Under the pieces are notes generated by a model that saw only the letters and a program-made list of their open reading frames with translations, was not told where the DNA came from and did not search any database. The position numbers and the translations under genes are program-made. From Astropecten irregularis (lineage: Eukaryota > Echinodermata > Asteroidea > Paxillosida > Astropectinidae): a stretch of DNA of 64,000 nt. Below, in pieces: positions 9,001-50,716 of the stretch (its first letter is position 1; the number at the start of each line of letters is the position of its first letter). The DNA lies in NCBI GenBank assembly GCA_963971285.1, contig OZ020244.1, positions 21,080,001 to 21,144,000 of the forward strand. Reading direction: 5' to 3'.

Positions 9001-12000
9001 GAAGCAAGTTTTACAAAATGCAAAACCAGATATTTCATTGCAAAAGTCACAAACTCTCATAAATTTATGAGTTGAATGACAACGATGGACAGCATCAAAT
9101 GGTGCATTTCAATTCTACCGGAACTTTTGATTATTGGTTCTGAATATGTTCTTCAAAAATATGTGGTCACTACACTTCACATGATATTAAGGAGGTGTTG
9201 CAACTCACTGAGCTCTCCGCCCTCTCCGATAGTATCAAGCATGCCGAGGGGGTACGCCACGTAGGCCAGGTTCCCGTAGGCCCACTGGGTCTCGCTGGCC
9301 AGGTCCAGTAGGCGGGCGAAGAGCTCATTGCGGCCCAGGCGGTAGGACAGCTCCAGGGGGGTCAGCCCCGCCTTGTTGGGGATGTGGTAGTTGGCCGGCA
9401 TCTTGCTATGGCAGATGACGTGCTTGAACATCATCTAGATGTGGTGTCAGAAGTGGGATAAACAATATGCATGCTAACAAAATGTTTTGGGAAATGTCTG
9501 GTGCCACTTAGAGATCTTGAGGTGTACAACCTCCCACATTTCAGCTAGGTACCCCCATATTTACAACCAGCTAGATTTTCATACAAAAACAAAACAAAAC
9601 AACATCCATGCCTTAGAGGTGAAAACATCAGGAAATCCCTTTTAACATTTGTATAAATCAAAATAATCAGCTTTGGTTACTTCTGATTCATTTGGTCATA
9701 AATTTATCAAATTTGAACATGTGTAACACTGAGTTCGCCTTCCTTCTCTCTGATCCCTGAGCAACAATGTGTGAGCATTGACTCTATTCCTACCTTCTGA
9801 TTGTGGATGATGATCATGTGCACCACCGTGTTCCCGTACGAGTCCTTGGCGTTGGGGTTGACCTGTCCTTGTCCTGGCCTCTTCTTCAGGCTCTCCTCAA
9901 TCAGATAGTCATAGATCTCCGTGCTGCCAACGCTGGCTGCAAATGCCAGGCAGTACTCTCCGTAGTAGACCTCGCCCTCATAGTTGGGCTGCTTGAGCTT
10001 GATCTGCTTGGGGTCCTTGAGGTCGTTGGGTCGGAAGAAGCGGCCGGTGGCCCGTCGGTCCAGCTCAGCGTTGTACTGGCCGACGAGCAGCCGGACTGAT
10101 TCGAGGTCCTTGTTGACAATTGCCATATGCACTGCATTCTCACCTTTAAATAAAGAACACCAAATTCTAGTTATAGATTAATTGAATATGACTCACTCAA
10201 AAGAAAGCAATCCTGGATTATGTACATCACTCTAGTCTAAACTTTTCCCAATCCTCCCACAGACAAAGGGTGTTACTTGTATACAAGTATATAAATACTT
10301 ACTGCTTGGGCAGATATTTGAACCCAAGTTGAACTTTTTAGTACTTAAGTTAACGTCCTGCTATTTATTAAAATAGTAGGTCCTTCAGACCTGTAAATAT
10401 CATAGATAACCACAATATAAACAAGTATTCTCTAGAGTATTCTTCTCCTGAAGACGGCCAGTGCACTAATGGCTGGAACATCAAGTTAACTAGCTCTTTT
10501 CAGAGTCACCCCATATATTCACAAAAGACTTAAATATATTGTGTCACGCATGGTATTACCGCAAAACCTATAAATTTATGTACTTCCGTCATGCTTACAT
10601 GTAGCCTTAAATCTATCTTATCAAGTTTTCTGTTCTGTTTTTCTTTTTGATCAACAACCTTTGCCCTGAGGAGGCTACTCTTCCCTAAAGCCACCCAACC
10701 ACTGCATCCTCTTGCTCTCCAACTCACCGTAATATTCTGAGCCCTCGTAGATGTCCAGCGCCAATTTAGGATAGGTCTCCAGGAGAAAGCGGGCGATCTC
10801 CTGGTGCATCTTGGTGTTGTTCAGGTAGCAGAGGTGTAGGATGGTCTCGCCGACCTCACCACGCTTGGATAGGTCCCAGCAGGCCTTGTGCTCGGTGAAG
10901 CGGTTAATGGCCTGCTGCTGGTACTCATGAAACTCCAACATCAGCTCCTGGTCCGACATGGTGTCCAAGATTTTCTTCTGTGTAGTCCGAGGAAAGTAGC
11001 AAATAACAATAGATAATAATGACTACCAGTAATTGTGCTAAAATGCATTAGTTACAGGATTGGTAATTACCCAAACAGAAATGTTCACCGATTTACGATA
11101 TGAAGATGGTGCTGGTAGACACCTACCGTTATGATATTTCAACTTGAAATGGTGTATTTATCCAGAAATTTGTAAAACAACGACCGTAAACAGTTTTGAT
11201 CTGGGGGTAAGATTAAAACCATTCTTTATGTTTTATCTAGAAAAATTAAGTTGGGTTTTCGCTACTTTCTCCTCACTCGGATGTCCCATTGAGCTCAAAA
11301 TTTCAAAGGTTTATTATTTCATATACATGTTTGATCAGACCAAAAGTGCGAGTGCTTTTCTGTGACCTTTACCAATCATGTATTATATACCTTTAACAGG
11401 TGTCTCTATGAGGTAAGGAACACCAATACAGCCCCCTTTGATGCGGCAGAATGTAATAATACTTTCCCAATTGTTAGAAGTATATCATTTATGTTGCATG
11501 CCATTACAATGCCATTGCTTTTTTAAGACCTTTGATATTTTTCTTTGAGAATTACCTTTTTGTCATCCACAGTGTTTTTCCGGTACTGGATGTAGTCCCA
11601 CTCATTAATGACTTTTCCTCTGCCTTCCTCATATAGATACGGACCCACCTCCTTCCTGATCATCGCCTGGAACTCAGCATCACTCTTCCTGTTTCGATAG
11701 CTGCAAGTCAAAACCCAACAATCAATTTGAGAGTGTAAATCGCTAAACAAGATATACAAAAGACATACAAACTGAAACATTCCTTCCTATGGAATAATTA
11801 AGGAAATCCAAGACAGTCCCCTGACTTCAAATGAAGACTCTTGAATGAAATTTTGAGCTTTGACTGAGTCCTGGTTTTCGGTTGAGAACTTGAGACACAA
11901 AATAAAAGATCAACAGTTTTCATTCTTCTGGAGGTGGTCCGAACATAGTGGCTGGAACTGCGAGAAATTCCCACCTCCCGTTCTGTCAGAACCAATTATC

Positions 12001-12166: not shown

Positions 12167-12701
12167 CTTGTCTCCACAGGTCTCAGTGTCTCATTGGAAA
12201 ACTTGAAGGCAATTCGTGGATTTACTGTCTCTTTTGATGTTTCCGATGCTAACCATCAACTCAGTTCTCTTGCTGACTCCATGGTTCTCTAACAATCTTG
12301 TCCGCAGATTTGAAAGTACATACTGCAAGTTTCAAATTGAAAAATACAAAATTGCTATAAAACCGGTCAAGGAATACCTTAATAGAACTGCAATATACAC
12401 ACATTGGTAAGCAGGAAGAATGGGTTAATGGCCACATACAATTTAATATGACCTTCAGAGAAGTTAAAACTACATACCGTGTTGAAGGGAAAATAGCATT
12501 AATCACAAGCAAAAAATTACACGTTGGTGAAATGTGGTGAAAAGATAAACTAATTTTTTTCAGAGGGAATGATTTTGTGGTAAGTTAGGCCTATTTGTTT
12601 GTGCTCCATGGAATTCACCCAAGCTTGTGTTGTGTTTGAATATCTCTGAATATATTTCTAACTTACACATAAATGCCCAAAATGATGACGCACGCATGTC
12701 A

Positions 12702-12836
12702 ATGGGAGACTTTTGGAGAGTCGGTCTTGAGTCAACAGCCCACGCACACCATGCTTGCGCAATTGTGAGCATGCGCGCGTTGTATTGCACGTGCGTGCAC
12801 TGTTGACTCAAGACTGACTCTCCAAAAGTCTTCCAT
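12702..12836. mobile_element. Palindromic ATGGGAGAC MITE, copy 3
   Basis: Same family, upstream of the TRPV start; inner arms GAGTCGGTCTTGAGTCAAC and the inverted counterpart. Confidence 0.85.
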
Positions 12837-14311
12837 TTGATACTTTTCAAATTAACATAAAAAAAACTGTCCATTTTTTGACATTTTACATAAAATGTTC
12901 AATTATTTTTGTGTGTTGATGATTAATGGTGATATGATGTATTTGGTACACAATTTACAGTATGCCTACTGAATAATTATGTTTCAAAATCTAAAGGAAA
13001 ATTACAGTGTGTATATTAAATTTGTCCACGTCAGCAGAAAATTCCACTGTGCAATACACACAATTGCCTTATATACAATGACATCATTGTTCTAACAGTA
13101 ACTGATGACCATTAATTACTAAGATGACTAATTTACATACAAATGAAAGCTGTCAAGTTTGGATTTAACCCACCACTTAATAAAAATCAATGTCAGCCGG
13201 TAATGTACAGCACAGCATTAGCCTAATACCGTTCAATTTAATTAATTGCTACTGTAGATGTACATGTAAGCCTGCATCTCCAAGTAAGGTACAAGTAGAA
13301 AATAAATATAATACAATTGGCAACTGCCCACGAGTCAGCAATTTCATTTCATTTGAACATTTCATTTATTATTTCACAGGGCAAGCAAAAGAAGGCACAA
13401 TACAAACAGGAAAATAAACAAAATGACAAAACTATAAACAGTAAAAGTACAGTACATTAAATCCTTCAATTGATGAAATCCTTCAGTGAATTGCTATCAC
13501 AATGATTGGACTTTTCATGAAGATTTATTATATCTCTAATATTTACTTTTTTTCAAATATAAGCCAAAAGGACACTGCATTAATTCATACGATGACAACC
13601 CTCGCCTTGTAAGATGTGATATTGAGGTTCAGTTACACTCTAAATGTCACTGAATCGCAAATAATTGCAAACGTGTACATGTCAATCATTTGTGTTTGTT
13701 TTATTCCTTATTTCCATCCCTTGTTTAATTAAAAACCATATTTTTACCTCTAGTTTGATTGATGCTGTATTCTCTATTCAAGTATGCTAAACAAAGTCCA
13801 TGAAGATGATGTATGCATACAGGCCTACGCAGTACATAGAGTACAATGTACATGTACAATTTTACATCATGTATACACGTATGCACAGGGTGCATAAGAT
13901 GATATGGGTAATTTACAGTGAATCAGTATATTGTGTATTTCTATACGTACCATTACAAATCTTTCATGGGGCTTTACATATGAAATATCCCCTCTGAATG
14001 GTATTTTGTCATATTACAGGGTGACACTTTGTACGATTCCCTAGAATCTTACCATGACAGCATACAGTATTTTTCATAAATCCCTGCCAAATGCCCACCG
14101 TGTTCATTGAGGCGTAGAAGGTAACTTAGCAACACACAACCATCAATATGATGGTACATGTACACTGCATACACATGTACAGTATTATTGACTTTATAGT
14201 GTGTAAGGCCAAGGTTATACATAATGACAAGGGTTCATTGGTAACTGTCACACGCACACAAAACTATAGACAGGGCTGTCTACACGTTTGCATTGAACTC
14301 ATTATCATTTG

Positions 14312-15046: not shown

Positions 15047-15191
15047 CATGTGTAACATTTAATTGTTGTCATGTTTTTATCCACTCAAGAAGTGAAATGA
15101 CACATGAGAAAGATTCATCAATAAAATGAAAATGAGAAAATTATTGTTGTTTTTTATCACTAATTGTTGTTTTTAGCTGGTAGATATCGCA

Positions 15192-15315
15192 ATGGGAGAC
15201 TTTTGAGAACCAGTCTTCAAGTCAACAGCACATGTGCACGCAATTGTGAGCATGCGCGCGTTGTGTTGCGCGTGCGCTGTTCAGACTTGAAGACCGGTTC
15301 TTAAAAGTCTCCCAT
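15192..15315. mobile_element. Palindromic ATGGGAGAC MITE, copy 4
   Basis: 124 bp, arms AACCAGTCTTCAAGTC and GACTTGAAGACCGGTT, core GCATGCGCGC. Confidence 0.85.
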
Positions 15316-16140
15316 TAAAGAATTACAAATGAATTGAACAGTTTCAATCGCACACATTTCAAGACGTTAATTGTCAGCTCTGAAATATTATTCGATGACA
15401 GCTGGACTGTTCCATTACACTCGGCTTCACCTCCGGTGAAATAGAATCAGATGACTGGGATTTATGAAGGCATGATATAAAGACCGTATTATTTATTACC
15501 GTACTAACTAAAACTGCATACAAAAACAGGATTCTTCTATTCTTCAATAAATACATGTGAATAAGAAAAGTAGCCAAAATTACAACCAGTCAAGGCAATG
15601 ATGAATGCTTGAATCGATCATAATGGTAGGAAAAGATTCCATGCTTGAATGATGAATGATGAATGCTTTAATACAAACTACTTAAACCAGCTAGCAGGGG
15701 TAGAAATAATGCTTTGTTGCTAAGCCTATATAATTATGAGAAATCTGTGAAGATTATGAACAATCTGTAGGCCCCTTATAAAACTTTTTTTTTTTTGTAC
15801 CTCCACCAGTGTCCACGCGTAACCCCAAAAATAAAAGTACAAGCTGAAACGCAACTCCTTTTACTTCAAGGTGGCCTCTTTTTAGCAGGGGCCTACATAA
15901 CATTGCTGCTGTCAGCATTGTCAGTTACAAGCAACAAGTGGATCGGAACTACAGGTGCTTATCCCTTGCAGCAGTAACGAGTGTTTGTTGCTACTGACCT
16001 GAAAACAAGAAACGAAAGTGAACCTAGCTAGTATGTGGCATGTCATGATGTGGGCCCTACCTTCTTCAGAAATTCCGTCAGTTTTCTGTCTGTACATCAA
16101 GTCATCCACCACGGTGACTCCACATAGGAAAAACTGATGA

Positions 16141-16545: not shown

Positions 16546-16627
16546 TTAGAAAATTGAACAAAATACAGATGAAACTTTCAGAGTAGGCGTTGGCTCTCTC
16601 TTCAGTTTCAAAAGAATTGGTGTTAAG

Positions 16628-19600
16628 ATGAGCTTGGAGGAGGGGAGTGCTGTCAAAGATCCTCCAAGATGCAAGTTTGGGATGGACGTCTTCTTGTCTT
16701 GCCACAAAGGTTTCCATGGGCTAGTCAAGACTAGACCAGAAGACTTTAGGGTTACGGAAATAAACGTTACGGGCAAGTTGGTTCAGCTTGAGGGAGCTGA
16801 AGAGCAGATGGTTGCTCCGTCGGATGACATTTTGATAACTCCCCAGTTGCATGTTGACGCAGGGTCAGTGGAAGTTCAAACAGAATACAGATCCAAAGTT
16901 GGCATCTCTGATTTACGGTGTGTAAATCCAGCAAACACAAGTATTTCAACGGGAGCAGGGGACCAGTTATTTTATGACGATTTGACGGAGCTTGATAAGC
17001 TAAGGCCTATCCTGAACAGTATAATCGGAGCAGAGCTAGTGGATGGTCTGCAAACCTACTCCAATCAAGAGCTCATTCGAAATGATGTCGCCTCTTCAGA
17101 TAGTGCTTCTGCTGCAGGATCCAGTAGTATTTCTTCAAGTCTGAAGATTCAGAATGCCTCATCAGAAGATGACAACTCATCAGAGATGGAGAGCCAGTTT
17201 GATCTAGGTGAACTAAATGAGAAGGATAACCGAGCAACAGTCCACAAAGCAGTTCAGTGCCTCTACCCTCACCTGAAGACTGCTGCATTCAGACTTGACG
17301 GTGCCCTCTCTGTTCATGTCTCAACAAACCCAACCTATTGGGATTTCAGAAAGCTACTGACCAGTCAGCAAACGCAAAGACTTCTCCGATTTGCAGGTTC
17401 CAAGTTCTCAACCAGGACAGTCTCGTTAGGTACAGAAGGGGCTGATTCCAAAGAGAAGAGAACGGCGATTCACCGACTGGTTTCCAAGCATTTTGGAAAG
17501 TTCTTGGTGACCAAAACAGTCTTGGCAGAGAATAGCAAGCTGCAGGAGGTGACTGTACGATTCAGGGACAGGTACATTTCCAAGGAAGGTAGAGGTGTGA
17601 AGAGGAAAGCAGTCACAGAGGAAAGTAACTCATCTGGCTCTGTTTACACTGGTGAGAATTGCATTGTGGGTGCATTCAATTCCTTGCTTGAACTTGCACT
17701 TGAAGGAATTCAATAATGACAGATTTGTCTAGATCTAGTGGGCGGAGCCATGATGATTACTCTTCAATAGGGCTCCGCGCTCGAGCTATTTATAAAATAC
17801 GCCCTTTGTATTGAGACTATTGACAGCTATAGTTACTTGGATGTTCGGACAAACTTCACGTTTATACATGTAAGTTAGTAGGGCCACGTGCAACTTGTTT
17901 GTCCGAACATCTGAATGTGACGTCAGTCTTGAGTGCAGAGCCCTATTGATTGAAGTTGGCATAGAACTCCATCTCCATGTAATTTGGATCTAAGCAAGTT
18001 TGCCTAATTAATTGTTGATGAGGGAGAATGACAGAAAAAGTACAAGAGGACCAGTTTACTTTGTGGGTCCTTGTTTCTCACTTGTTTGTTGTAATAAAAA
18101 ATGAACAGTTTCCTTTAAAAGCCTTTATAGAACTTAAGATTATCCTTTAATCTCGTCATAGGGCCATAAAGCCGTGGTAATGGTAACCCTAAATTTTACC
18201 CTGGTTCCATCTAATTACACTACCTGCGATAAGATTGAGGGTAGCCTGGTGCAATAGACCTTGCATCAATGTCACCTCATTAGGTTCAAGGGTTAATTGC
18301 AACCAATGAGCAGTCGCCAGTTGCTTCACAGGCCTGGACGTCTGTATAGGTGAGAGAATTAGCCATAGGTGAGAGAATTAGCCATGACCTCTGTGGGTCT
18401 TGGCCTTGATTCCCCTTGGAAATTTCCCTCTGCCATTTTCATCTACCTGTGGAAGTACTCCCTTATGCATGGCCTTGTCCCTTCAAGAATCAAACTTCCA
18501 GGCCAGAATTCAGCAAGCTAGTGGAGTTGAATATTATTTCAATGTAGCTTGGGTGGAACTTCCATGGACCGGAAGGGCTGGTGGCTGCCTCTCTCACCCA
18601 TGATTCTACCCAAATGATTGCAAATTAATCCTCAAGTCTCCTGTATATCTTATTGCCAGGATTCACATTGAAGAAGGAGAACCTAGAGACATTAGACACT
18701 CTGCAGCAACTTGCACGGACATTGAGAGTTCAGCCCTCAGACTTCAGTTATGCTGGGGTGAAAGACAAGAAGGCCATCACGCTCCAGTCGGTTGCAGTCA
18801 AGGGCATCAGTCACGAAAGGTGGATAATCAATTGATCAACCTGTTCTTTTGTTTTAAGATGATTTCACCTGTCATTGGTGCATTGGCCAATTGTAATTGT
18901 GTCCGTCTGATAAGAATGTTCGCACAATTTCATATTAGGTTTGGCGGACTTTGGCCAATTAATTGTTATACCTTCTTTAGATTTATAAGGATGCAGCCGA
19001 AGCAAGACAATGGAAGGGTTAGGCTGAACAATATTACCTTTTGCTAAAGTTTTGTGAACTGGCTTAAAATTTAGTGTGCTGTACATATGCATGCACAAGA
19101 TTTGCAGCATTACACAATTCACAACTAGCTCTAATTGTACAGTGTATGGTAACTTTCAGTTTTGGAATGATTTAGTGCCTTTATGCCATTCTAACCCATA
19201 ATGATTTGTCTATGAGGATAATTTGTATTGTTGGCTACACTAGACTAGATTCCTTCAGAATACCAAATTATTCTGAAAAGTTGTGTAAATGAATGTTTTA
19301 TTTTTTGTTTAGATTCAAGCAGATTTTTCAGGATGTGAATCTACCAGGTGTTGCCATTGGCAACGTCCATCCCCGCACGACACCCATTCGTACTGGAGAC
19401 CTGGAAGGCAATAGCTTTGAACTACTCATCCGTGACGTCTGTTTCAATGAAGATCTCCACCGGAAGGATACAGAGGAGAGAGCCCTCTTGTGTCAGGAAA
19501 TTGACAGTTGTTTCAACTCTGTCAAGGTATTTTTTTTTTTTTTTTTAACAAACTCAAACAGAATATACAAAATTGACCTTTATTCCTGTGGAGTTCCCCG

Positions 19601-21901
19601 CTTAATATCAACACTTCTGTGCTTACTGTGTGAGTCAACCCTGCAAGCTGTTCATCTTTGGCTATGGCAAGTTTGCATTCCTTGCTACTAATCTGTGGAA
19701 GATGCAATCAAGTGCATAATTTGTTGCAGTATCATCATTGATTTCTTGCTTTGAGTGAATACAAGAAATTTGGTAGTAGACCCCCTCCCCCTCCCCCCAT
19801 ACACAAACCATGGCTGGTCTAGTATTCCAAGGAGTATGTTTTGCTCAGTGGCCTAAGTAAATGTTATTTGTATGTCTATGTATTTTTTGGCTGTTGCATC
19901 TTAACCTCCAGGAAAGGGGATTTGTGAACTACTTTGGAGAGCAAAGATTTGGGCAGTCATGTGACAGTGACAGCCATTCAGCTGCCATTGGACTTTCCAT
20001 GTTATCAGGGCAATATGTAAGTTATCATCCAATAAAACTTGATTTCTCTTTTGGGTCTGATTCAGTCAAGCTGTTATCTGTGGTCACTCAATGACCAAGG
20101 ATGGGACAAGAATTAGGACATGGGGTTTTGAGCTTCAAGGAGCTTGTCTTTCAGCATAGTTTCTCTGATAAACTTTGGCTATTCCTGCTCCTTGATGTTG
20201 AATGAGAAGCTCTGCTAATTAAGAGCTTTTCCACTGTATCTCTGTGGAGCTTGATCTTTTTTGTTGCAGATTCCCTGTAACAATGAAAACTCACAATCTC
20301 GAACCCAAGAGCTTTTCTGTTCTTGTATCCTACTTACCATTGAATGTCTTTAACCTTGGTTTTTCCCTATACAAAATTTCCTGTGAATTAAGTATAGCTT
20401 TACAAGTTTGAGCCAATTTTATAGAGCTGCAAAGCACACCAATTTGCCAAGTCCAGCTTGGAATGGAAATTCTTGATCAACTAATAGTTGTCACTGGATA
20501 CCAGTGTCTTGGCTAAAAATGTGCCGAGTGATATCTTTTGCTTGACTGCTCTAAGCACTTGTTTGACATATTGTTTTTATTCCAATTGAACATTGTAGGA
20601 AGCTGCTGTCCGCCATATTCTAGCCCCTGGAGATGCAAAAAATGACCCTGTCAACGCAGCCAAGCGCCACTTTCAAACAACGCAAAATCCAAAGGAGGCC
20701 CTTGCACTTATGCCCAATTACAAGTCCCGTGAGTGCCTCGTTCTGAAAGCACTGCACCGGCACGGACTGGAAAGGGACGGGTGTGTGAGGGCGCTGTTCA
20801 GCATACCGCACGCCATGCGGCAGTTCTACATCCACGCCTTCTGCAGTTTAGTGTGGAACACCATGGCTAGCAGACGGTTGCAGTCTTATGGATACAAGGT
20901 TGTTGCAGGGGACCTGGTGCTAATTGGAGACGAGAAACAGGATATCAGGGACAAGGTGTGGTCATTACTTCATACTTTAAGAGGTTTCCCAAGGGAATGG
21001 ATGTGCATATGCATACATGGGGCTATCCATAATCATTTTAACTTATGTGTGACAAGAATACAAAATCTGGCCATGTCTGAACTTTTGGCTTCTGTTTTAA
21101 ATTACACATTTGCCTATGGAAGCAGCTGCACCATCTTCCACAACACAACTGATGATCGATGTAACTGTTGGGTCCAGTCCCCTCTCTGTTTTACTGTGAG
21201 AGGCAACAAATTCCATAAGCAAGGAATCTTTAGTTACAGTAAGTTTATTCATGACATTGGGCCCATTCTTAATTCAGATATGTGTCATTTTACCCAAACA
21301 GATTCTGGAGGTTACCGAAGCAGACGTGCAAGCAGAAACCTACTCCATCCGGGATGTAGTCCTGCCGTTGCCAGGCAACAGCATCCAGTATCCAGGCAAC
21401 CGAGTTGGAGCTGCATACAAAGAGTACATGGAGGAGGCAGGCTTGGGTCTGTGCACATACCGTGTGACTGAACTTCAGCTGAACATACCAGGGAATTACC
21501 GTCGACTGATACAGTGGCCCAAAGATCTAGAGTGGGACTTGGAGCTCCTGTGCGATGGTGATGTCTTGTCGCACGAAGAGAAAACAGACCAAGTAGATAG
21601 TAATCCTAAACACCAAGAAACTGGTCAAATTTTTAAGAGCAACAGAGGTGGTCCCACGATGCTCACTGCACCAAATGATTCTCAGGACCCACTAGAACCC
21701 GATGCCAAAAAATGTCACACAATCTCTCCAAAAGACAAGAATTTTCAGGAAAGGACAGGGAACGATACACCCAGGGAATGGTTTAATGATGAGCATGCTC
21801 TTCGTCAAGCCTCTGCAAAAGTGGCAAACCTGAGAGTCAAGTTCACATTGCCACCTTCAACATATGCCACAGTATTTTTGAGGGAGCTTATGAAAACATG
21901 A
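16628..21901 (+). CDS. PUS7L: PUS7L, TruD-family tRNA/mRNA pseudouridine synthase
   Basis: Converts uridine to pseudouridine in RNA. Coding exons: 16628-17651, 18660-18819, 19313-19526, 19912-20016, 20599-20955, 21302-21901, all GT-AG and phase-consistent, giving about 819 residues (vertebrate PUS7L is near 700; the excess is mainly a Ser-rich, acidic stretch around residues 150-190). Visible landmarks: GFHGLVKTRPEDFRVTEI near residue 30 (PUS7-like N-terminal motif); SDFSYAGVKDKKAIT with the probable catalytic Asp near residue 377; NYFGEQRFG near 472, the TruD N-Y-F-G-Q-R-F-G type motif; and a C-terminal insert and tail ending FTLPPSTYATVFLRELMKT, the usual TruD end. The start follows an in-frame TAG at 16547. 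The exon 1 donor is set by the join YTG/FTLKKEN, resembling vertebrate YTCFTLCKEN. AATAAA lies at 21974. Confidence 0.93.
17757..17958. mobile_element. Nested-hairpin element in PUS7L intron 1
   Basis: Outer arms CAATAGGGCTC and GAGCCCTATTG; inner arms GATGTTCGGACAAACTT and its reverse complement. It begins about 105 bp after the exon 1 donor. Confidence 0.65.
18660..18819 (+). CDS. PUS7L: PUS7L catalytic-aspartate exon
   Basis: Starts with GA completing a Gly codon and ends with AG of an Arg codon. It encodes the TruD motif II region, YAGVKDKKAIT; the Asp in G-x-K-D is the nucleophile in E. coli TruD (family knowledge). The donor AG/GTGGAT is weak, but the join HER/FKQIF keeps frame and similarity. 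Confidence 0.9.
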
Positions 21902-22804: not shown

Positions 22805-23460
22805 AAAATTAACCGTATGATAATAAATCACATCTCATGAAAGAATGATGTTAGGCTACTTGGCAATTTATTTCAATTTGTACAAAAAAAATTATTAACT
22901 CCAGAAAATCATGTATTTTCTTTCCCAAAGAATCTTCATTCTAAAATCCATCATGTTTACTAAACATAGCCTACCTGTTAAATACCATTATTTCTAACAT
23001 TTAAGTAAAACTCCTTAAACTTACATGAAAAAGGTTCTTTTTTTAATACCGGTACCTGAATATGTTGATAAAAAAAGACTACATGTTACTAAATAAATGC
23101 ATTTTCAAAATGTGCTCAATACATTGGAGAATAACCTATTTTCTCTCATCACTCTTGTAATTGGTACATGGTGCAAATGGAATTAGTGATGAATATGCGT
23201 ATAGGCCTTTCCAAGCAGGCTTATTGTGGTCAAGATGAACTGCAGCCACTAACTGGGTACCCTACCGCTACCATCGAAATGATCGAATGCAAATCTTTGA
23301 CCAATTAGTTGTATACCATCACTTGAGCATGAGTTAGACAAACACCAGCTTCCCATCTGTGGCCAACATCATCTGAACCATTACACTAATCTACAGCTCT
23401 AGTTGGAAAGGTTTATAAAGATTATAAAAAATACACGTTTACAAAATAAAAACAAAACCA

Positions 23461-23592
23461 ATGGGAGACTTTTGGAGAGTCAGTCTTGAGTGCGCACGCA
23501 CGCGCAATACAACGCGCGCATGCTCACAATTGCGCAAGTATGGTCTGCGCGTGCGCTGTTGACTCAAGACCAACTCTCCAAAAGTCTCCCAT
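23461..23592. mobile_element. Palindromic ATGGGAGAC MITE, copy 5
   Basis: 132 bp between the convergent PUS7L and BRK1 3' ends; a long hairpin in either transcript if read through. Confidence 0.85.
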
Positions 23593-24043
23593 TAAGATCA
23601 TCAACTATTAAGAATGACTTTGGCGAACCAGAACAGGACAGTATTCAATTCAGAATTTGTAAGGAAGCAGAACAAATAATAAGTTAAGATATGGGTTTTG
23701 GAAAATGCTGCTCAGTATATCGGGTCACGGCACCTGTTTGTGACCTCTATAAAAAGGTTGACCCATTAATACCTTGGGTATCAGCCATTTGTTTGGTTTC
23801 CTGAAGGCACTACAAAAGGGAATATAACAAAGGCCTCCTAGGCCATGGGCACCAGTCTATTTGGATCACCGAAGTTCCTTGTCGCATGAAACAAGATGGC
23901 CGGCTTGCTGCAATGGAGATGATTTCTACATCCATAAGGAGATGCAGACAATAGCTAGCATTATCTGGACTACATTCAGTATTATATACAGCTCTGTACA
24001 GTTGAGATTCTATTCACTAACAGCATCAACTTCAACCGGAGAC

Positions 24044-26973
24044 TCATGTTAGTGTTTCTCCCTTGGTCACCTATGGGGAAAATGATGAAAACCAATAAGT
24101 TGCAAAAATAGTGGTTAACTTATAATAAAATAAATTAAACAGAACCCCATGCACCGTTCTCAGGTTCCAGCATTGCTGCGTGTATCCATGAAATGATCCT
24201 TGGGGTGTGGCGGTGTGTGCGTGGTTTCATGGCTTCTGACTGCCAAACGAACAAAGATAATTGACTTCTGGGGTCACCACCAACGTAGGGCTGGATGGTT
24301 CAGTTGATAGAGCGCCTGTATAGTATTCAGGAGGTCGCCGGTTTGAATCCCGCTCCAGTCAATTCTTATTTGTTCACTTTTCAGTCAGTTTCCATTGTGG
24401 TAATTTGATGACTAAATAGAACACAACCGAATGGATATCAAAGTGCCATCTGACAGCACAATGCGTGAGACTTGGTAGCTCTGCAGCTTCAGGGGTTGAC
24501 TAGGGTGATAGGTGCATGAGGACAAACCTTGACTTTTCACAACAAATGGTAGGTGCTCAAATACTACTGACAGAATTTCAACAGCAGTATGTGTGTGGTT
24601 TCATGGCTTCTGACAGCCAGATGAACAAAGACAATTGACTATTAGAAACACCACCAACATAGAGCTGGGTAGCTCAGTTTGTAAGAGCTCTGATGTCGAT
24701 TTCACGAAGCCCTGCGATCGATCGTAACTCGAGTTGTGAAGGAACCCATCGTAGGGGGCCTATCCCACGTAGGGCTTCAATGCATCAAAAGTCCTACGAT
24801 TGATAGTAAGTTACGAAGAGTTTGGTGAAATCGACCCCTGGAATGGTAATCCGGAGGTCGCTGGTTCGAATCCCGCTCCAGTCAATTTTTCTTTGTACAC
24901 TTTTCAAAGAATTCCAACAATTCTGAAGTTCTGTTTGATGAGACTCACCCTAGCTTCCAGGTACTCAATCTGTCTCTCCAGTGATGTCAGCTTCTCATTC
25001 AACATGGCTAGTCTAGATCGACATGACGTGTCTATTATGCACAGAAAGAACAAACAAACCACACCGGTAATCCTGAATCGCCAAGGTACAAGGAAACTAG
25101 CTGTCAGATCCTGGCTGGTAGGTTAGTGCCCCTGGGGGTTTGAATAACTTGAATTAGTGATTGAATGAGCTGTAAAATGCTACTAACGAACAGTTGATAA
25201 ATATTCAGGATAAATATTCAGGAGGGGGGGGGGACATTATTGTAAAATATTTAGTAAGGGATGAGTACTATCAAGAAAGGGTCTGGCACAATATGTAAAA
25301 AGTGATTCTAGTTGAAATATCAGAATGGCAAGACTGGTGCTAAATACCACAGATTACCACAGGGAAAATGGATCATAAATGACGTATTATCACACAAACC
25401 ATACTGTGATGTGCATGAACTGTGAAAATAAGCTTACCAAAAGAAATCCATTTGTGGTAAACTGTGGTATGCACTATGCAGGTGGGTTATGGTTCAGAGT
25501 ATCATTGTCACATCCCAACTGTGGCCAATGCTCCAACTGTGTCAGCACAGTTGGGCCTACCCAACTTGTTGGGCGCAAACGATGCAGGTGTGGGATGGTC
25601 ATAAAATAATTTTCTATAGATTACCAATCCTCATTCAATTCTGAAAATGGAAAAGTGCTGGCTAAAAACTTGTTTTCTTGGCAACTGACTTCATTTGGCT
25701 TGCATACAACGGGGATCTCACGATAATTATAGACAATTCCTCTTCAATGTCCGCATTTTGTTTGGCCAAACACAAACATGAGGGTAAGGGTGTACAAGCA
25801 GGTCCGATACCTATAAAGGAAATATAACTGTATTGTCTGTCTGTTTTGAAGTTTGCAACAAACAGGTAAGAAAATTGTATTTTTACTCTGAAATGTTGCA
25901 CAAAATTCTTCTATCTGGGGATTTAAGGACTCAGGAACATTTGCTGAAAGTAAAAAATATCATTTTGGAACAGTTGAAACTATTAAGTTGTTTGTATTCC
26001 CTTTACAGGTATCGGACCTGCTTGTACACCGTTACCAACATGAGATAGGCCTATAAAACAGCTATAGGTCTACCTAGCAAAGTTTGCTCTCTGTTCAAAT
26101 CGAATACATGTACATGTACATAGTTTTGGGGGTTATACTGATTGCTGCAGAGGTAAAAGTGTACGTTTGTGCCCAGCCCAACTTAAGTTGAGTATGTCCA
26201 ACTGTGTCCGTTACAGTTGGGCATGACTCAGACAAAGGTGGGGCTGCCCCGAAACACAGTTATGGGGCAGAGGCATCGTTGGGACGTAACATCATTACCA
26301 GTAATCATTCGTAACCTACACTGTACAATTCTCAGTCTTACCATGTACTCACAGTCACATTAGACATATATGTTTACCCCAACTTAGTCTCAGTTTTACA
26401 TAGTTGCGATGATCGTAACCCTAGGTCTGACATGGGGACTGGGTCCCCATGCCATAGGTCACAATTAGTCATCGCAACTAAGTTTTACAAAAACTAAGGT
26501 TACTCCGTGGGTAATTACAACTTTCGGGAACCCCCATCATATCCTTATCACATGCACATGTGCAAGGGAACATATTCAGGGTCGTTCCAGCGTGTGGTAA
26601 ATTACACAAAGGGGTCCCAAACTTTCGCCCCTCCTTCCTTGGGCCCAATGACTTTTCGTGGTGGCATTATTAAATTTTCTGAGTGGTTAAAACAACAGTC
26701 GATTGATTGAGCCTTCTAGTTCTAGAATTGGCTAACCCACACACTCAAGTCTCTCCCCTCTTTAAAAAAAAAATTGCCATTTATTTTGTAATGTAGGCTA
26801 CATGTGAAAACTAATGTAAGGCCAGGCTACATTATTTTTTTACCAAATGAATTGAGAAAGTCGGCAATCTTCTTGATGTTTGTTGTTATGACTTCGATGT
26901 ACTCCCTGTTCACCCAGTCCTCCTGAATCTGTTGCTGGACTGTCGACTGAGGTGCTTGTCGCATTCGGGACAT
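24044..26973 (-). CDS. BRK1: BRK1 (BRICK1/HSPC300), WAVE regulatory complex subunit
   Basis: Small coiled-coil subunit of the SCAR/WAVE complex, which activates Arp2/3-driven actin branching. Three coding exons on the minus strand: 26973-26844, 25031-24949 and 24070-24044, total 79 residues (human 75). Exon 1 reads [20 protein letters not shown] then IADFLNSF; the split Asp codon G/AC leads to [20 protein letters not shown] then IEYLEAR; the last exon is only eight codons plus stop, VTKGETLT, matching the known C-terminus. An in-frame upstream ATG exists at 27039, but the one at 26973 gives the family's usual N-terminal length. Intron 1 carries an hAT-like MITE (25783-26036). Convergent with PUS7L. 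Confidence 0.95.
24170..24410 (+). mobile_element. tRNA-derived SINE, copy B (best preserved)
   Basis: The tRNA-like part is 24289-24360: acceptor arms GGCTGG and CCAGTC pair, A box TGGTTCAGTTG, B box GGTTTGAATCC. A conserved block (GTGGTTTCATGGCTTCTGAC) precedes the tRNA part, and the tail TTCAGTCAGTTTCCATTGTG follows it. Lies between BRK1 exons 2 and 3. Confidence 0.8.
24590..24905 (+). mobile_element. tRNA-derived SINE, copy C, split by a MITE
   Basis: The head and A box (GGTAGCTCAGTTTG) lie before 24692 and the B box (GGTTCGAATCC) after 24839; the sequence between is an unrelated inverted-repeat element. Confidence 0.8.
24693..24838. mobile_element. MITE nested in SINE copy C
   Basis: Ends GTCGATTTCAC and GTGAAATCGAC; internal AGGGCTTC and CCTACGAT arms also pair. 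Its place inside the SINE dates it as younger than that SINE copy. Confidence 0.75.
25783..26036. mobile_element. hAT-like MITE with perfect 8-bp duplication (BRK1 intron 1)
   Basis: 254 bp. Ends GGTAAGGGTGTACAAGCAGG and the inverse CCTGCTTGTACACCGTTACC; AACATGAG flanks both sides exactly (25775-25782, 26037-26044). Confidence 0.9.
26380..26505. repeat. Imperfect inverted repeat in BRK1 intron 1
   Basis: Arms TAGTTGCGATGA and TCATCGCAACTA with further paired TTTTACAT/AAACTAAGG-like ends and a central CATGGGGACTGGGTCCCCATG palindrome. Probably another short transposon. Confidence 0.6.
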
Positions 26974-27413: not shown

Positions 27414-27600
27414 GTATGGTTTGCATGAAATTTGCTCCAGTGATTAAGTGGCTGACATAATGACTGGCGAGCTCGAGCATCATATTTTGATATTGACAGA
27501 CGGCCCTCTATTGCGCAGTCACAGTCACACTGACTGTATAGTGTATGCATGTATCATCTTAGAGAAAGGAAACAGTCCTTTGGGCCTAGTAGTTAGTACG

Positions 27601-27841
27601 GGTGCCAACTCGGTCCGTAACCAACTCGGTCCGAGTCAACTCGGTCCATGACCAACTCAGTCCGAAGCCAACTCGGTCTGTGACCAACTCGGTCCGTGGC
27701 CAACTCGGTCCGTGGCCAACTCGGTCCGAGGCCAACTCGGTCTGTGACCAACTCGGTCCGTGGCCAACTCGGTCCGTGGCCAACTCGGTCCGAGGCCAAC
27801 TCGGTCCGTGACCAACTCGGTCCGTAACCAACTCGGTCCCA
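27601..27841. repeat. 16-bp minisatellite, left arm (about 15 units)
   Basis: CAACTCGGTCCG followed by a variable 4-base spacer (TGGC, TGAC, AGGC, TAAC). Spurious frames with a 16-residue repeat arise from it on both strands. Confidence 0.95.
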
Positions 27842-29398
27842 ATGGGAAAACGTAGCCTGCAGTCATCGGTTTCCGATGGGATAACGGGAAAACTTCTATA
27901 AAACAGAAACGAAATAAAATTTCAGAAAATCACTTCACTAACTTTGAACTGGACACTTCCAGATTATACTCTGTAAAAATCCTCGAAGTTGAAGTCTTTT
28001 CTTTGGAAATATTGTCCGTCATATACAGCGACATCGATTCCGCTATGTAAACAAAGCGTCACCAGTTTTCGATAACTTGGTTGTGCGGCAAAGTTCGTTG
28101 ACATCGGAGTAGCTATGGCGTGCCAAGTCACTCAAAAATTGATGAAATATTGTCCTGACTTGATTTGATCGAACTGGGTCGATAGAGTTATTTATAAAAG
28201 GTCCTGAAACGGTTTTGATTCAAAGATCGTGAATGATAAATTATTTTTTATAAATAAATGGTTGAATCAACAAAATGAGAATTTGGTACAGATCATGGTA
28301 GGTAAAATTATTATCACAACATTTTTATAATATATGGCATCATAATGAGAGGCCTAAACGTGGATAGCTTAAGTTCATCAGCTTAGCAAAGTTTCAAATT
28401 AAAAAGAGAAAAATAAAATTATGGCACTTCGATTTGAGAAAGACTTTAACACTTTTGTTACATTGGCATGCCATAAAAACCCAGATCGCACTGGGATCAC
28501 GTGACCTGCCGTCTGACATCGGAAGAATGAAAGTTGTTCGAGCAGACGACAGTTTAGTTTGAAATATTTGACCACAGATTGTGTCTTTTATAAACGTTTG
28601 AACATTAGCCTTAAAATGCATTAGTAATCTATACCCAAAATTACATAGTTTTTTACTTTTGAGTATCAGTCACAACTGAAAACTTTATTCTCAATATTCT
28701 GAATGTTGGAGATAGCCCTGAGTGTAGTCATCACTTCAGGCATACTGATCACGAAGTATCACGCACGGTCTCGCGGTAAATGGGAATCAAATTTCGTCAT
28801 CGAAAACATATGTCCATCGGAAACTCATGACCGGACGATACACAAACAAGAATCCAGTTTGCAGCAGCAGTGTACAACATGATGTAGGCTACTTGCATTA
28901 ATGTTTTTTAATGTCATCATAACATCTGTTTTGCTTGTGGCTGAAACTGTGAAGAAATAAATTATGTCTTATTATGTTGATACCATAATTATTTGATAAA
29001 ATGGCACAATACAATTTTAATTAAAATATCAATTAAATTATACACAAAGTCAATTGCCTTGTGAAAACGTATTTTTTATGTTTAAAATTAATAAATCAAT
29101 TAGTGAATAATAATGATGATTGTTTTGTGTTTTGTGTTTTTTATTTTTTAGCCTTGTTTTAATTAATCTGTGTATATATATAAGATTTATAATTGGCAGG
29201 TGTTTGGGAAGGCACGTCTTTTGATGACAGGTTTTTTTTACTTTTTGTCATCCCTGGGCAGCACCTGGCAATGTATTTTTTATTCTTATAATGTTTTAAA
29301 GATAATAAATGAATAAATAAATAAATAGGCCTAAATAAATACGTACTCGTTTTGCTGCAACAAAATTACCAGACGTTTTTGCATGCATTATCCCATAG

Positions 29399-29575
29399 GG
29401 ACCGAGTTGGTCACGGACCGAGTTGGTCACGGACCGAGTTGGTCACGGACCGAGTTGGCCTCGGACCGAGTTGGTTACGGACCGAGTTGGTCATGGAGTG
29501 GACTGAGTTGGTTACGGACCGAGTTGGTCACGGACCGAGTTGCCTCGGACCGAGTTGGTTACGGACCGAGTTGAC
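29399..29575. repeat. 16-bp minisatellite, right arm (about 11 units)
   Basis: The inverse unit ACCGAGTTGGTCACGG with the same spacer variation, one expanded unit (TCATGGAGTGG) and one deleted unit (GTTGCCTCGG). Confidence 0.95.
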
Positions 29576-29602
29576 CTAAAACCGTTAGTACAGTGTACTT
29601 TG

Positions 29603-29955
29603 AATGTCAGACAAGTCGACCACAGGACAGTCATTAACTCAAGACAAGTCGACTAAAGATAACTTGACTCCGAGACAAGTCAACTCCATCTCTTCCGATG
29701 CGATGAACGGTGTACGTGTATGCGACATACAATGTAAAAAATGTATCTGAATATAAAATAACAAAGTTGCACCCGCGCATCACTTTGGCAGAGAAGGAGT
29801 CGACTTCACTTGTCTCGGAGTCGAGTTGTCTTTACGGTCGAGCTGTCTCGGAGTCGAGTTGTCTTTGAGGGCATTCTGTACATCTTGGAGTTGGGTTGTC
29901 TTTGCGGTCAAGCTGTCTCGAGTCAAGTTGTCCTGCGGTCAACTTATCTGACATT
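29603..29955. mobile_element. Second, smaller foldback element
   Basis: Left arm 29603-29688 starts AATGTCAGACAAGTCGACC; right arm 29794-29955 ends GGTCAACTTATCTGACATT. The arms consist of 16-17 bp units such as GACAACTCGACTCCGA and GACAGCTCGACCGTAAA. It starts 11 bp after the target duplication of the first foldback element. Its own duplication is not apparent. Confidence 0.75.
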
Positions 29956-30102
29956 CGTTTTAGCCCATTTTCATGATTTACACAAGTTCTTGTTTATGTT
30001 ACATCTAGATCTGGCCAAACATACCTATAGCCCTGATATTAAAGGTCGGTTCATACTTGTAATGAATGAATGAATAAATGAAGAGATGAAAATTATACTC
30101 AC

Positions 30103-35812: not shown

Positions 35813-36020
35813 TCACACAGCTGCTTAGCGCCTTAATGGGTTAACAACCAAATTTCCATGTGTTGTGTATCACTTGCAATTGTTCTTTGGCTGTTGTTCG
35901 CTGACCATGAATATCAAATCAAATTTTCAGTGGTGGTTTATTTGTTTTACTGAGCAAGCCATTTTTGTGCTAAGCATTTTTTTGTGCTTAGCATTTTTTT
36001 TTGTGAATGAAATTGGCCCC
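35813..36020. mobile_element. GGCCAATTTCA MITE
   Basis: Ends GGGGCCAATTTCAC and GAAATTGGCCCC, interior GTGTATCACTTGCAATTG. Confidence 0.85.
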
Positions 36021-39996: not shown

Positions 39997-40578
39997 TAAA
40001 TGTGGAAGTGTGATTATAGATGCAAATCTGGAAATGTGGTGCATAAGCCTAAATATGTATTTCACAAGTTGCCAAATTTAGGCTGCTGATTTACAAGTTC
40101 ACCTCATGAATTTGAATTGTGTTTTCTCATGAATTTGAATTGTTTTTTCATCAAGCCGTGTTTTTTTCCCAATGCTATATTACATGTAAATGGAAATCAC
40201 ACTGTATCTAAGCACAAAATAAATCTTGAAGCAGTGTTATGAAATAGTCCCAGGTTGGAAACTTATAAGAGTTATGTACTTTGTTAACCTGACCTGCACT
40301 GTACTGTTGAACATGTTGAAGGGAAAACATGCATGGCCCCCCCTATCATTCCACCTGAAGCTCAGTGTTGACGTACAGTTAAGAACAAGAAAGTCTTCTC
40401 TGTGGAATTCACTTTAATCTCACAACCCAAACACCTTCCCTCTTTAAGCCATCTATCATCCGTGGCTGATGATGTTTGGTCAGACTGGCTCGGCATAATA
40501 CTCAGTGTTTACACATCACTGATGAAGATCTCCTCGCTCAAAGTCTGTTTTTTAAGAAAAGGGAGGAGGCCATGCCCA

Positions 40579-40822
40579 GGGGCCAATTTCGTGGAGCTGC
40601 TAAGCACACGAATTTGCTTAGCACAAAAATGTCTTGCCCAATAAAACAAACCACCGTTAAAAATGTCATTAAATGATATTCATGGTCAGCGAACAACAGC
40701 CAAAGAACAATCACAAACAAAACACAACACATGGAAATTTGGTTGTTAACCGTGTTTTTATTAAGACAGAAATGTCATGCTTAGCATATTTTTGTGCTAA
40801 GCAACGCCTTGAAATTGGCCCC
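40579..40822. mobile_element. GGCCAATTTCA MITE
   Basis: 244 bp, ends GGGGCCAATTTCGTGG and TTGAAATTGGCCCC, inner TGCTAAGCAC arms also inverted. Confidence 0.9.
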
Positions 40823-41229
40823 AGGCCTCAGTCTCATGCACGAGAAGAATCTGGCAATCTCAACCTGCCGGTCTGAGAAGTACATCATGCAGTCAGGTAG
40901 AATATCTTACGCGCCTTTTAAGAAGTAGAATAAGAACCGGTACTTAAGAGACTGTCCAAGCCTTGTCTACTTATTTTATCGTATCTAAATGTAAAATCGG
41001 CTCTGCAGAGATGCACGCATATAATACATACATGTACACACATCTCTCCTTCTATCCATTCAAGCTGATTGCGGATATAAAATGGGTCTCTTGTGAAGTC
41101 CATTGTATATTAACTTTCCTCTTTGATGTTCATGAATGGCTTCCTCCGTGCATGCGATGTACATGGATGTACATGTACATGTAGGTGTTCACTCTCACCT
41201 CCTTGAACATTTACGTCTGTTTGAGTCCT

Positions 41230-41470
41230 GGGGCCAATTTCACGGCGCTGCTAAGCACAAAAATTTACTTAGCACAAAAATGTCTTGCCCAATAAAACAA
41301 ACCACAGTTAAAAATTCCATTTGATGTTCATGGTCAGTCAACAACAGCCAAAGAACAATCACAAGTGATACACAACACATGGACATTCGGTTGTTAACCC
41401 AGTTTTTATTAAGACTGAAATGTCATGCTTAGCAAATTTGTGTGCTTAGCAGCGCCGTGAAATTGGCCCC
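41230..41470. mobile_element. GGCCAATTTCA MITE
   Basis: 241 bp; both termini match exactly over GGGGCCAATTTCACGGCG, a likely recent copy. Confidence 0.9.
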
Positions 41471-42293: not shown

Positions 42294-42326
42294 ACCCTCG
42301 GGAAAAAAAAACTGCCCATTTCATCA

Positions 42327-42744
42327 GGGGCCAATTTCATGGAGCTGCTATGCACACAAATTTGCTTAGCACAAAAGTGTCTTGCCCAATAAAACAAACC
42401 GCCGTTAAAAATTTCATTTGATATTCATGGTCAGCGAACAACAGCCAAAAGAACAATCACAAACGAAACACAACACATGGAAATTTGGTTGTTAACCCTG
42501 TTTTTATTAAGACAGAAATGTCATGCTTAGCATATTTTTGTGCTAAGCAGCGCCTTGAAATTGGCCCAAAGGAACAGCCAAAGGACATTCACAAGCGATA
42601 CACAACACATGGACATTTGGTTGTTAACCCTGTTTTTATTAATCATCAAATAACCACAATGGAAACAGACTGAATTTTATTATAGAGACAGAAATGTCAT
42701 GCTTAGCAAATTTTTGTGCTAAGCAGCGCCGTGAAATTGGCCCC
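42327..42744. mobile_element. GGCCAATTTCA MITE tandem pair
   Basis: A complete copy (42327-42567) is followed by the 3' two-thirds of another (about 42570-42744). The second contains the SINE tail insertion at 42640. Confidence 0.85.
42640..42674 (-). mobile_element. SINE tail-only insertion inside a MITE
   Basis: About 35 bp of the SINE tail (AACCACAATGGAAACAGACT on the plus strand) interrupts a GGCCAATTTCA MITE, with TTTTATTA on both sides. Confidence 0.75.
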
Positions 42745-44369
42745 AGGTTTGTCAAAGGACATATTGAAGTCATGTGAAATTGAAAAAGCACAGCGAAACA
42801 AATTCGCCTATTTTGGTCTTTTTTTTTTATCATCAAAATATCCAGGGGCTGAATCTTTGATTGTGCACACAGACTGAGCTATATACACGATCAGTCCTAT
42901 GATAGATATTCCTACTAAAATGAGAATGCCTGAGATAATAACAGATGATTATCATTATCAGTGATACTCAGAGATCTCTATCTAAGCCAGGTAATGGGCG
43001 TTGACAGTGTCTGGTAATCAGTTACCATGGAAATCAGTGCTGGATGAAGAAGCGGAGTCTGCAGAAAGCGGAAAGAGATATTATCATTAGCCCTCTTTAG
43101 TATAAGATGGTCAGCATTGAGATGGCAAACATGTTTGCTTGATGCTTGGGCTGTTTGATAGGCTGACCCATCCCATGACAATCCATCTCATTATGTAGTT
43201 GACATTAAGCCAAGGGTATTTTATGAATAAAATAATCCTAGCTTTACTCTTAGTCTTATCTTAGAGATCTCTTTATTCAGTTCGGCTTGTCATCATAAGG
43301 TCAATTTTAATTTGATACAAAGTGCGGAACATGTGTAGTATATGCTGTATATTTATGTATAAATCCATAAGGAGTAGTGTGGTTTCGTATCCAGTGCAAA
43401 ATGCGGTGGTCGCTATGACACATGGGGCGCACATTGCATTATTCACAACGTGAAATTAATTATAGATGCATATCATGCGCAAGACGGCAAAGAAAGGGGG
43501 CGCAGGAGGAACATCGAGCAGTAATACTGTATCTTCCCACATATTTGTGATGTTTGATACATCGTTCATCACAAATTAACAAATATCTGCGCAGTTTTGT
43601 TTTGCAATGTTTGCACATGTATGCATGCATTACATGTACATGTATAATGACGTATAAGTTTGATAATTATAACAATACATCGTACATCACAAATCTGCGC
43701 ACATTTTACTTTGTGTGTTTTTATAGTAACGTGATTTTTTTCTGAATAATCTTTGTTTGCTTTAGTTTACGACAATTAGAAATCAAGTGAAATGTACACA
43801 AAAAGTTATTAAACAGTTGTCAACTGTCACGAAAAGTGCTATAACAGTATGCAGTTAGTGGTTGTGATTCGCCCATAATGTCATGTGTCATGGCAGCCAC
43901 AAAAATGCATAAGGACACTGTTGAGAGAGTTCCATATCTTGAAGTGAAAATTTGACATGTATGGTGACCACTGACCAGAGACAACTTAACAAAGGGCATC
44001 ATGATTTCCTTTAATATTATTTTTACTACACATGTGCAGTATAATTATAAGAAGATGAGAAAGATATGTATGGAAACCATCAGTATCCCAATTGATCTGA
44101 TATAAAAGGTAAATTAATTGCCACTTTTCAAGGACAAGTACTAGGAGCCTTCCTAGCAAATTTCTGTTCAGAAACCGGCCTACAGTACGTTTTGTGAGAA
44201 TGAAAGAAAAAATTCATCCATCCATCATGTGTTATTACAGAGAAGTTTGGATCAAACATTCGACTGCATGCAGCTCAGACTTGATTAATTTCTGCCGTTT
44301 GAAGTCTTTTTTTTATTATCAATCAAATAACCACAAGGGAAACTGACTGGATTAATTTCTCAAGTTACA

Positions 44370-44605
44370 GCATTGCTAATGCTGCACGTATTTTAAACGA
44401 TTCTTGGGATATAGCGGTATGTGAGTGGTTTCATGGCTTCTGACTGCCAAATGAACAAAGATAATTGACTATTATAGGGACATTGCCAACATACATACAA
44501 TAGGACTGGATATAGCTCAGTTGGTAGAGTGCCAGTACGGTATTCCAGGGGTCACTGGTTTGAATCCCGCTCTCTGTCAATTTGTCTTTGATCACTTTTT
44601 TTTAT
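44370..44605 (+). mobile_element. tRNA-derived SINE, copy D
   Basis: Same order as copy B: GTGGTTTCATGGCTTCTGAC, A box TAGCTCAGTTGG, B box GGTTTGAATCC. A reversed tail fragment (CAAATAACCACAAGGGAAAC) lies just upstream at about 44325. Confidence 0.8.
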
Positions 44606-45924: not shown

Positions 45925-46058
45925 ATGGGAGACTTTGAGAACCGGTCTTCAAGTCGACAGCGCACGCGCACGCAATTGTGAGCATAGCATGCGCGGGTTG
46001 TTCTGTGCCTGCGCTGTTGTGCGTGCGCTGTTGACTTGCGGTCCTCAAAGTCTCCCAT
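45925..46058. mobile_element. Palindromic ATGGGAGAC MITE, copy 6
   Basis: 134 bp with a small internal duplication of the GTGCGCGCTGTT-like segment near the right arm. It lies directly after a truncated copy of the GTACAGGATTGG family. Confidence 0.8.
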
Positions 46059-50116: not shown

Positions 50117-50716
50117 ATGACTATGCCACTGACCTCCCTGTTCCGCGGCAGTGAAAACAAACTGACGGAGAAGAATGAGGCCAGCGTGGTCAGGGACTGC
50201 CTGATAACCGAACTTGAATATCAGATGAAGGATAGGCAACACGCCCAGTGGCAACAGGAGGAGGACCGGAAGAAGAAGCTAGGCGTGGCCGATTACAGCT
50301 GGCTGGTCAGCACTCCGCCCAAGTATTATACCCCGCCCCAACTGCAGATGCTGCAGCTGGAGGAGCTGTGCGGCGATGTGCGGTCCACGGAGACCGGGCG
50401 CATCATCAACCGCTTCAGGGACATCCTTGTCAGGGAACCCAAAGTAGAGGAGATGCCCCTCCTCCTGAGAGCAGTGATGCACCAGATCATCCAAGAGCGT
50501 CCTCCCGAGGAGACGTTGAGCGAATGGGTGGTCAAAAGGACTACGAGTTTATCCCGGATGAGGAATAATGTCCGCGTGTCACCGATGACCACGGAGACTG
50601 ATAATCAGGCCACGCAGCGATCACTGAGCATGCCGGAATTCAGCACCAGGACGCGGACGGTGCCGCCCAGAAGCCTTGCCGAGTTTTGCACAAACATTGA
50701 CGATCTTCCTGTTTGA
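50117..50716 (+). CDS. RD3: RD3-family protein (retinal degeneration 3-like)
   Basis: About 199 residues in one exon (vertebrate RD3 about 195). Family marks in order: VRDCLITELEYQM (residues 24-37), a polar charged helix, ADYSWLVSTPP (58-68), LQLEELCGDV, IINRFRDILVREPKVEEMPL, a charged linker, VRVSPM, and RSLSMPEF near the C-terminus, the counterpart of the SMPEF end of vertebrate RD3. In vertebrate photoreceptors RD3 binds and inhibits retinal guanylate cyclases and controls their transport; the role in this animal is inferred only. The acceptor TTCTTCATGCTCAG ends at 50099, so at least one upstream noncoding exon is expected. The first ATG after it is at 50117, a second at 50123. GC content rises sharply over the coding part. 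Confidence 0.9.
   Translation: MTMPLTSLFRGSENKLTEKNEASVVRDCLITELEYQMKDRQHAQWQQEEDRKKKLGVADYSWLVSTPPKYYTPPQLQMLQLEELCGDVRSTETGRIINRFRDILVREPKVEEMPLLLRAVMHQIIQERPPEETLSEWVVKRTTSLSRMRNNVRVSPMTTETDNQATQRSLSMPEFSTRTRTVPPRSLAEFCTNIDDLPV

Follow-up and report, generated by a model that had tools for sequence, protein, structure and literature searches.

The TU elements of sea urchins have inverted ends whose outer domain consists of tandem units of about 15 bp, and they are flanked by 8-bp duplications. They resemble the starfish element reported here in layout and in the length of the duplication. Other parallels can be drawn from published accounts. The Tm1 elements of the nematode Meloidogyne, which belong to the Mutator/Phantom group, share with the present element unlike terminal motifs (7 bp long in Tm1), unequal arrays of short units (about 14 bp, mostly 14 bp, with the unit CGATTCAGTATCCGC), an inner motif, nested insertions and a preponderance of non-autonomous copies, and one Tm1 copy class encodes a Phantom-class MULE protein; they differ in their nematode host, in the letters of their units and in their duplications, which are mostly of 9 bp (8-10) (PMC3169594). 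Tetris of Drosophila virilis has the same foldback build with a non-coding middle, no autonomous copy of it was found, and its three complete copies have duplications of 8-9 bp, but its inverted ends reach 1,735 bp with TIR-220 repeats and its host is a fly (PMC4079207). The Galileo elements of Drosophila, members of the P superfamily, also have long ends with internal repeats (PMC3573991, PMC3688188), which hold secondary sites for the THAP domain of the transposase (PMC3688188); they are set apart by duplications of 7 bp and, in one subfamily, by a repeat of about 210 bp (PMC3573991, PMC3688188). Finally, Merlin elements have a conserved terminal 5'-GG and duplications of 8 or 9 bp, and in some of them the ends match very imperfectly and tandem repeats are present internally (PMC8101967), which recalls the GG termini, 8-bp duplications and arrays found here, although Merlin is not defined by long minisatellite arms.

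The element of Astropecten irregularis combines long inverted ends, composed of short units in tandem, with target duplications and a dispersed distribution, the features by which the foldback class is recognised, and its standing as a foldback transposon family, of a kind already known, is well supported. It is very probably a non-autonomous DNA transposon of foldback build that moves by cut and paste. The mobile unit is about 1 kb long, with an A end that opens on GGGTGCCAGT and a B end that opens on GGTTTCAGGT, each followed by an array of 16-bp units and a short inner motif, CCTATGGGAAAA.

The window copy and its nested insertion

The window is the whole stretch of DNA that was analysed, 64 kb in length (C1:21080001-21144000). 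Within it, positions 27600-29583 constitute a 1984-bp element with GTTAGTAC immediately outside each border (27592-27599 and 29584-29591, both plus strand), an exact agreement that bears out the intact 8-bp target duplication proposed in the initial annotation. When 200000 pairs of positions were drawn at random from the window, 1167 had an 8-mer in common within 14 nt of the two points. On the left, the A terminus GGGTGC (27600-27605, plus strand), which is four nucleotides (CAGT) short of the GGGTGCCAGT of the 16 other complete copies, leads into the left or A arm of 15 units of CAACTCGGTCCGTGRC (27606-27839, plus strand) and then into a non-tandem inner stretch of the inverted repeat, CAATGGGAAAACG (27840-27852, plus strand). 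On the right, the corresponding inner part reads CTATGGGATAATG on the minus strand (29386-29398) and is followed by the right or B arm of 11 inverted units (29399-29573, minus strand) and by the B terminus GGTTTTAGGT (29574-29583, minus strand). Paired inverted arrays of a 16-bp unit, as first described, are thus present at these coordinates. With up to one mismatch, AACTCGGTCC has 26 matches in the 64-kb window, all of them within the element (15 on the plus and 11 on the minus strand), against a mean of 1.53 in shuffled sequence.

The centre of the window copy (27841-29398; 33% GC) is itself composite. Bases from about 13 to about 1001 of this centre have 39 scored counterparts elsewhere, the best of 874 first-look candidates, with 98-99% identity along about 990 bp. 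The repeat responsible, at 27855-28838 and unrelated to the foldback element, occurs in none of the 16 other complete copies, where the corresponding empty site reads CGTACACA or close variants of it. Since the site is uninterrupted in those copies, the insert can be delimited as 984 bp with a duplication of TA, of which the left copy lies at 27853-27854 and the right copy at 28839-28840 (both plus strand); the foldback element's own core, AT-rich and non-coding, occupies 28841-29385. Seven other copies of the insert were fetched, four of which could be read at both ends; three of these have TA on both sides and the fourth (L054) has an altered right end. Near its ends, the nested repeat also has weak inverted repeats that match at 16 of 18 nt. 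Most simply, it entered the window copy after the foldback element had landed. The view that the whole 2 kb moved as one unit is not supported; the structure is a foldback element of about 1 kb with a 984-bp guest that is absent from all 16 other complete copies. Extra sequence is present in L035, L048, L049 and the window copy, and none of it is common to them (L035 having been compared in part).

The centre had also been described as about 1.5 kb of non-coding DNA. The second half of this description stands, as no plausible coding frame was found: stop-to-stop frames there do not exceed 91 aa, and a Pfam scan of 10 of the 16 frames that reach 40 aa yielded a single match, an implausible one (E-value 0.095). 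The first half does not, as 984 bp of that centre belong to the nested foreign repeat.

The window contains several other repeats. A 254-bp MITE at 25783-26036 has 42-nt inverted ends (GGTAAGGGTGTACAA...) and an exact 8-bp duplication, AACATGAG. A similarity between its termini and those of the foldback element, promising to the eye, was rejected as unconvincing: the local alignment score was reached by 383 of 5000 dinucleotide shuffles and by 200 of about 20000 random window 44-mers. For the end-to-end comparison the figures were 248 of 5000 for the shuffles and 12 of about 20000 for window 29-mers. A MITE-like family of near-palindromes, about 126-138 bp long and with ends similar to AATGGGAGACTTTTG, is represented at 2103-2240, 12701-12837, 15191-15316, 23460-23593 and 45925-46058, and an inverted-ended family of about 245 bp, with ends like CAGGGGCCAATTTC, at 40577-40821, 41227-41470, 42325-42567, 61782-62032, 7997-8254 and 35838-36020. 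A tRNA-Thr match at 24289-24361 lies within a stretch that is repeated at 44357-44599 and partly at 2472-2592, and is perhaps a tRNA-derived SINE. Positions 4292-4777 hold 5.7 tandem copies of an 87-bp unit in a single orientation. Pfam matches to host genes (1603-2010, 9710-10177, 16550-21898, 49943-50713) comprise ion-channel and ankyrin exons on the minus strand and PUS7L/TruD and RD3 on the plus strand.

Copies elsewhere, target duplications and termini

In the host genome (475.7 Mb in 168 contigs) CCAACTCGGTCCGTG has 892 exact matches in forward and 840 in reverse orientation, whereas its reversed control has none in the same 475.7 Mb. The first 100 listed places of CCAACTCGGTCCGTG, all on C1 below 29.9 Mb, resolve into 20 loci, the window included; every sampled locus holds an exact 15-mer, so that loci lacking one were missed. 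Complete copies were chosen by patterns for both termini, after an unpatterned look had revealed those termini. Complete inverted pairs were present at 17 of the 20 loci (the window copy and 16 others), as the initial annotation had anticipated, and the single-orientation satellites that it had named as the contrary outcome did not emerge: a single arm was found at three loci, of which L044 and L045 retain 263 and 209 nt of the core and L033 none. Over the roughly 10 kb examined at each of these three loci and at L035, the only trace of a second arm is the pair of units in L035, and all else consists of stray single matches. Two extrapolations, one based on the density of loci (20 in 29.8 Mb) and one on the five exact matches that a locus holds, put the estimated size of the family at roughly 320-350 copies.

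The complete copies are rather uniform. Thirteen of the 17 measure 923-1018 bp, and in 14 the core is identical to the majority string at 0.950-0.994, the outliers being the window copy (0.949), L048 (0.880) and L035 (0.820 over 161 nt). Pairwise core differences (120 pairs, L035 excluded) have a minimum of 1.3%, a median of 5.6% and a maximum of 38%, this last value being that of L048 against the window copy, both of which bear inserts, so that misalignment is likely. A scan of IMG/VR with two adjoining units gave no match. In the literature searched, CCAACTCGGTCC occurred only in an unrelated bacterial paper, and no description of the family was found in the portions of the literature covered, Repbase and subscription journals being outside the scope of that search.

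At fixed borders, an exact 8-bp duplication flanks 16 of the 17 complete copies (window included), in 16 different words, so that other copies do have target duplications of their own, as the initial annotation had proposed to check. When the length tested was 6, 7, 9 or 10 bp, the count was 0 of 17 in each case. None of 272 pairs of flanks taken from different copies agreed over 8 bp, and borders displaced by up to 20 yielded at best 4 duplications in 17. The exception, L032, has no duplication at its borders; a 7-mer, CCATACA, which takes in the last base of its terminus B, is found again on the left side, 10 bp further out. Among the duplications, T occupies position 3 in 11 of 16, too few for a target preference to be called. 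A palindromic target preference, which seemed present in L031 and L049, was rejected (mean 5.81 over 16 sites against 5.58 over 1500 controls, p about 0.25).

The termini are equally constant. All complete copies but the window copy, which lacks CAGT, have GGGTGCCAGT as terminus A (16 of 17), and terminus B is GGTTTCAGGT in 15 of 17, with L036 reading GGCTTCAGGT; GG begins both ends in all 17. The two termini agree with each other at only 6 of 10 positions, and the element is thus polar.

The arms and the order of their units

In the window copy, the second unit of either arm has 15 nt, and the inner motif with which the arrays close, CWATGGGAWAA, is common to the two; the arms therefore correspond from edge to edge and are more than a pair of arrays built of similar units. 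Between these edges they differ in detail, as one unit of the B arm is 21 nt long and a block of four units is present twice in the A arm. The edges are also well conserved across the family: in arm A, unit 1 is identical in all 17 complete copies and the same 15-nt unit 2 is found in 14, and in arm B the corresponding figures are 14 of 17 for unit 1 and 13 of 17 for unit 2. When the unit variants are lettered, their order recurs among copies, roughly as a-e-b-x-c-c-c-d-b-a-b in arm A and a-e-b-a-m-a-d-a-c-b in arm B, so the order differs between the two arms but is common to both at both edges. L035 (whose B arm consists of two units only), L036, L048 and L049 deviate most from the prevailing order. 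Because the order recurs from copy to copy, the arrays appear to travel with the element and not to be of local origin, and because a four-unit block has been doubled in arm A of the window copy, they do change by blocks. The prevailing picture is that of arrays mainly inherited along with the element.

These observations bear on whether the arrays are ordinary minisatellites that lie in inverted pairs by happenstance, the duplication having arisen by chance. Unit number does vary between arms and copies (the A arms of complete copies hold 7-15 units), and the doubled block in the window copy is what slippage would produce; on the other hand, inverted pairs that have a common core and common termini make up 17 of the 20 loci, exact 8-bp duplications flank 16 of the 17 complete copies, and unit-variant order recurs between loci. 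We accordingly give the minisatellite explanation practically no credence, as it is refuted by the family-wide duplications; a minisatellite at a single locus is likewise rejected, given the dispersed complete copies. The same counts uphold the original suggestion that the arrays are transposon ends.

The unit itself resembles half a palindrome, judging from its letters: the made-up AACTCGGTCCGAGTT equals its own complement at 14 of 15 positions, and four common real units do so at 6-10 of 15. A second, more degenerate foldback-like structure, at 29602-29956, starts ten bases past the right duplication of the window copy. It has inverted termini, GAATGTCAGA...TCTGACATTC, and inverted arms of 16/17-nt units such as AGACAACTCGACTCCG, in which the half-sites AACTCG...CGAG of the main element recur, set 4 apart and not 3. 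Outside the main element, AACTCG-N(2-6)-CGAG occurs in the window only at 29602-29956 (two matches, forming one tandem pair, of a motif picked post hoc), and no target duplication was seen there by eye. By this resemblance the structure may be a distant relative of the main element. A more far-reaching proposal, which we regard as unlikely, is that the arms are position-coded; if selection keeps them so, they would be no product of slippage but an ordered, polar, multi-site platform for assembly of the transposase, and 29602-29956 would be a second lineage with a shifted code.

Candidate transposases and significance of the family

Given the borders and the established biology of elements with terminal inverted repeats, cut-and-paste by a trans-acting transposase is the natural reading of the family. 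The transposase would be encoded by another element and act in trans; by analogy with Galileo, whose long-end repeats bind the THAP domain of its transposase (PMC3688188), it may bind the units, with many sites at each end. It would then bring both ends together and excise the element at its GG termini, and the target would be cut with a stagger of 8 bp, which would generate the 8-bp duplication. The core of the window copy has received an insertion of a TA-duplicating element. The compact cores of the other copies, at 614-644 nt, are too short to hold a transposase, and none was seen in a complete copy, the frames listed being those of the window copy.

Which superfamily might supply the enzyme can be weighed from the termini and duplications. 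A Merlin (IS1016-type) transposase is a tentative candidate, possible although not probable: GG at both ends in 17 of 17 copies and 8-bp duplications in 16 of 17 agree with the terminal signature and duplication length of that group, but GG is a signature of two bases, and we know of no Merlin foldback. That a Mutator/Phantom-type transposase mobilises the element, as is supposed for Tm1 of root-knot nematodes, is only slightly less likely. The plan of Tm1 is the same, with unlike short termini, unit arrays, an inner motif and a mostly non-coding middle, and 8 bp falls inside the 8-10 bp range of Phantom duplications (PMC6446971); the unit sequence, however, is unlike that of Tm1, and the duplications are of 8 bp in 16 of 17 copies and of 9 bp in none, as against mostly 9 bp in Tm1.

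Both the hAT and the P superfamilies produce 8-bp duplications, a length that fits, and hAT elements have termini CA or TA and a target pattern nTnnnnAn. Here the termini are GG, letters that fit neither superfamily, and the hAT pattern is only weakly seen, with T at position 2 in 8 and A at position 7 in 6 of the 16 duplications. For the P superfamily, Galileo offers a precedent of foldback build, but its duplications are of 7 bp (PMC3573991), a length found in 0 of 17 copies here. Movement by a hAT- or P-type transposase is, on balance, distinctly unlikely.

One further lead comes from L033, where an intact A terminus and six units give way to sequence that does not resemble the usual core. 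About 0.6 kb inside this terminus, and on its strand, are two frames of 277 and 316 aa (L033/L060; L060:7511-9376, minus strand), the longer of which has a DUF4218 match (E 5e-5) that, at 23.6 bits, is below the Pfam cut-off of 27. DUF4218 accompanies CACTA-kind transposases, and CACTA duplications, at 2-3 bp, are shorter than 8. Matches in the other frames are weak or implausible, a DUF4806 match at 0.13 in a further frame of the neighbourhood standing behind implausible better ones. The roughly 10 kb inside the A end of L033 contain neither a B terminus, even with 3 mismatches allowed, nor an inverted unit nor a second flanking 8-mer, so that the neighbourhood of element and frames may be coincidence; L033 may be what is left of a larger copy, now broken, or a fragment of one end next to a gene with no relation to it. 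The frames are possibly the trace of an autonomous element, but that a DUF4218-bearing transposase of this sort moves the family seems improbable. Beside a one-armed family copy, L059 has a 653-aa frame, starting at about 3.5 kb, which we take to resemble a retrotransposon integrase.

Whichever transposase is involved, the family adds to the known foldback elements a well-preserved animal example, probably of hundreds of copies, with exact borders and duplications, and its nested insert comes with its empty site. No new kind of system is opened by these findings, but the recurring order of unit variants provides material for asking why foldback ends retain arrays.
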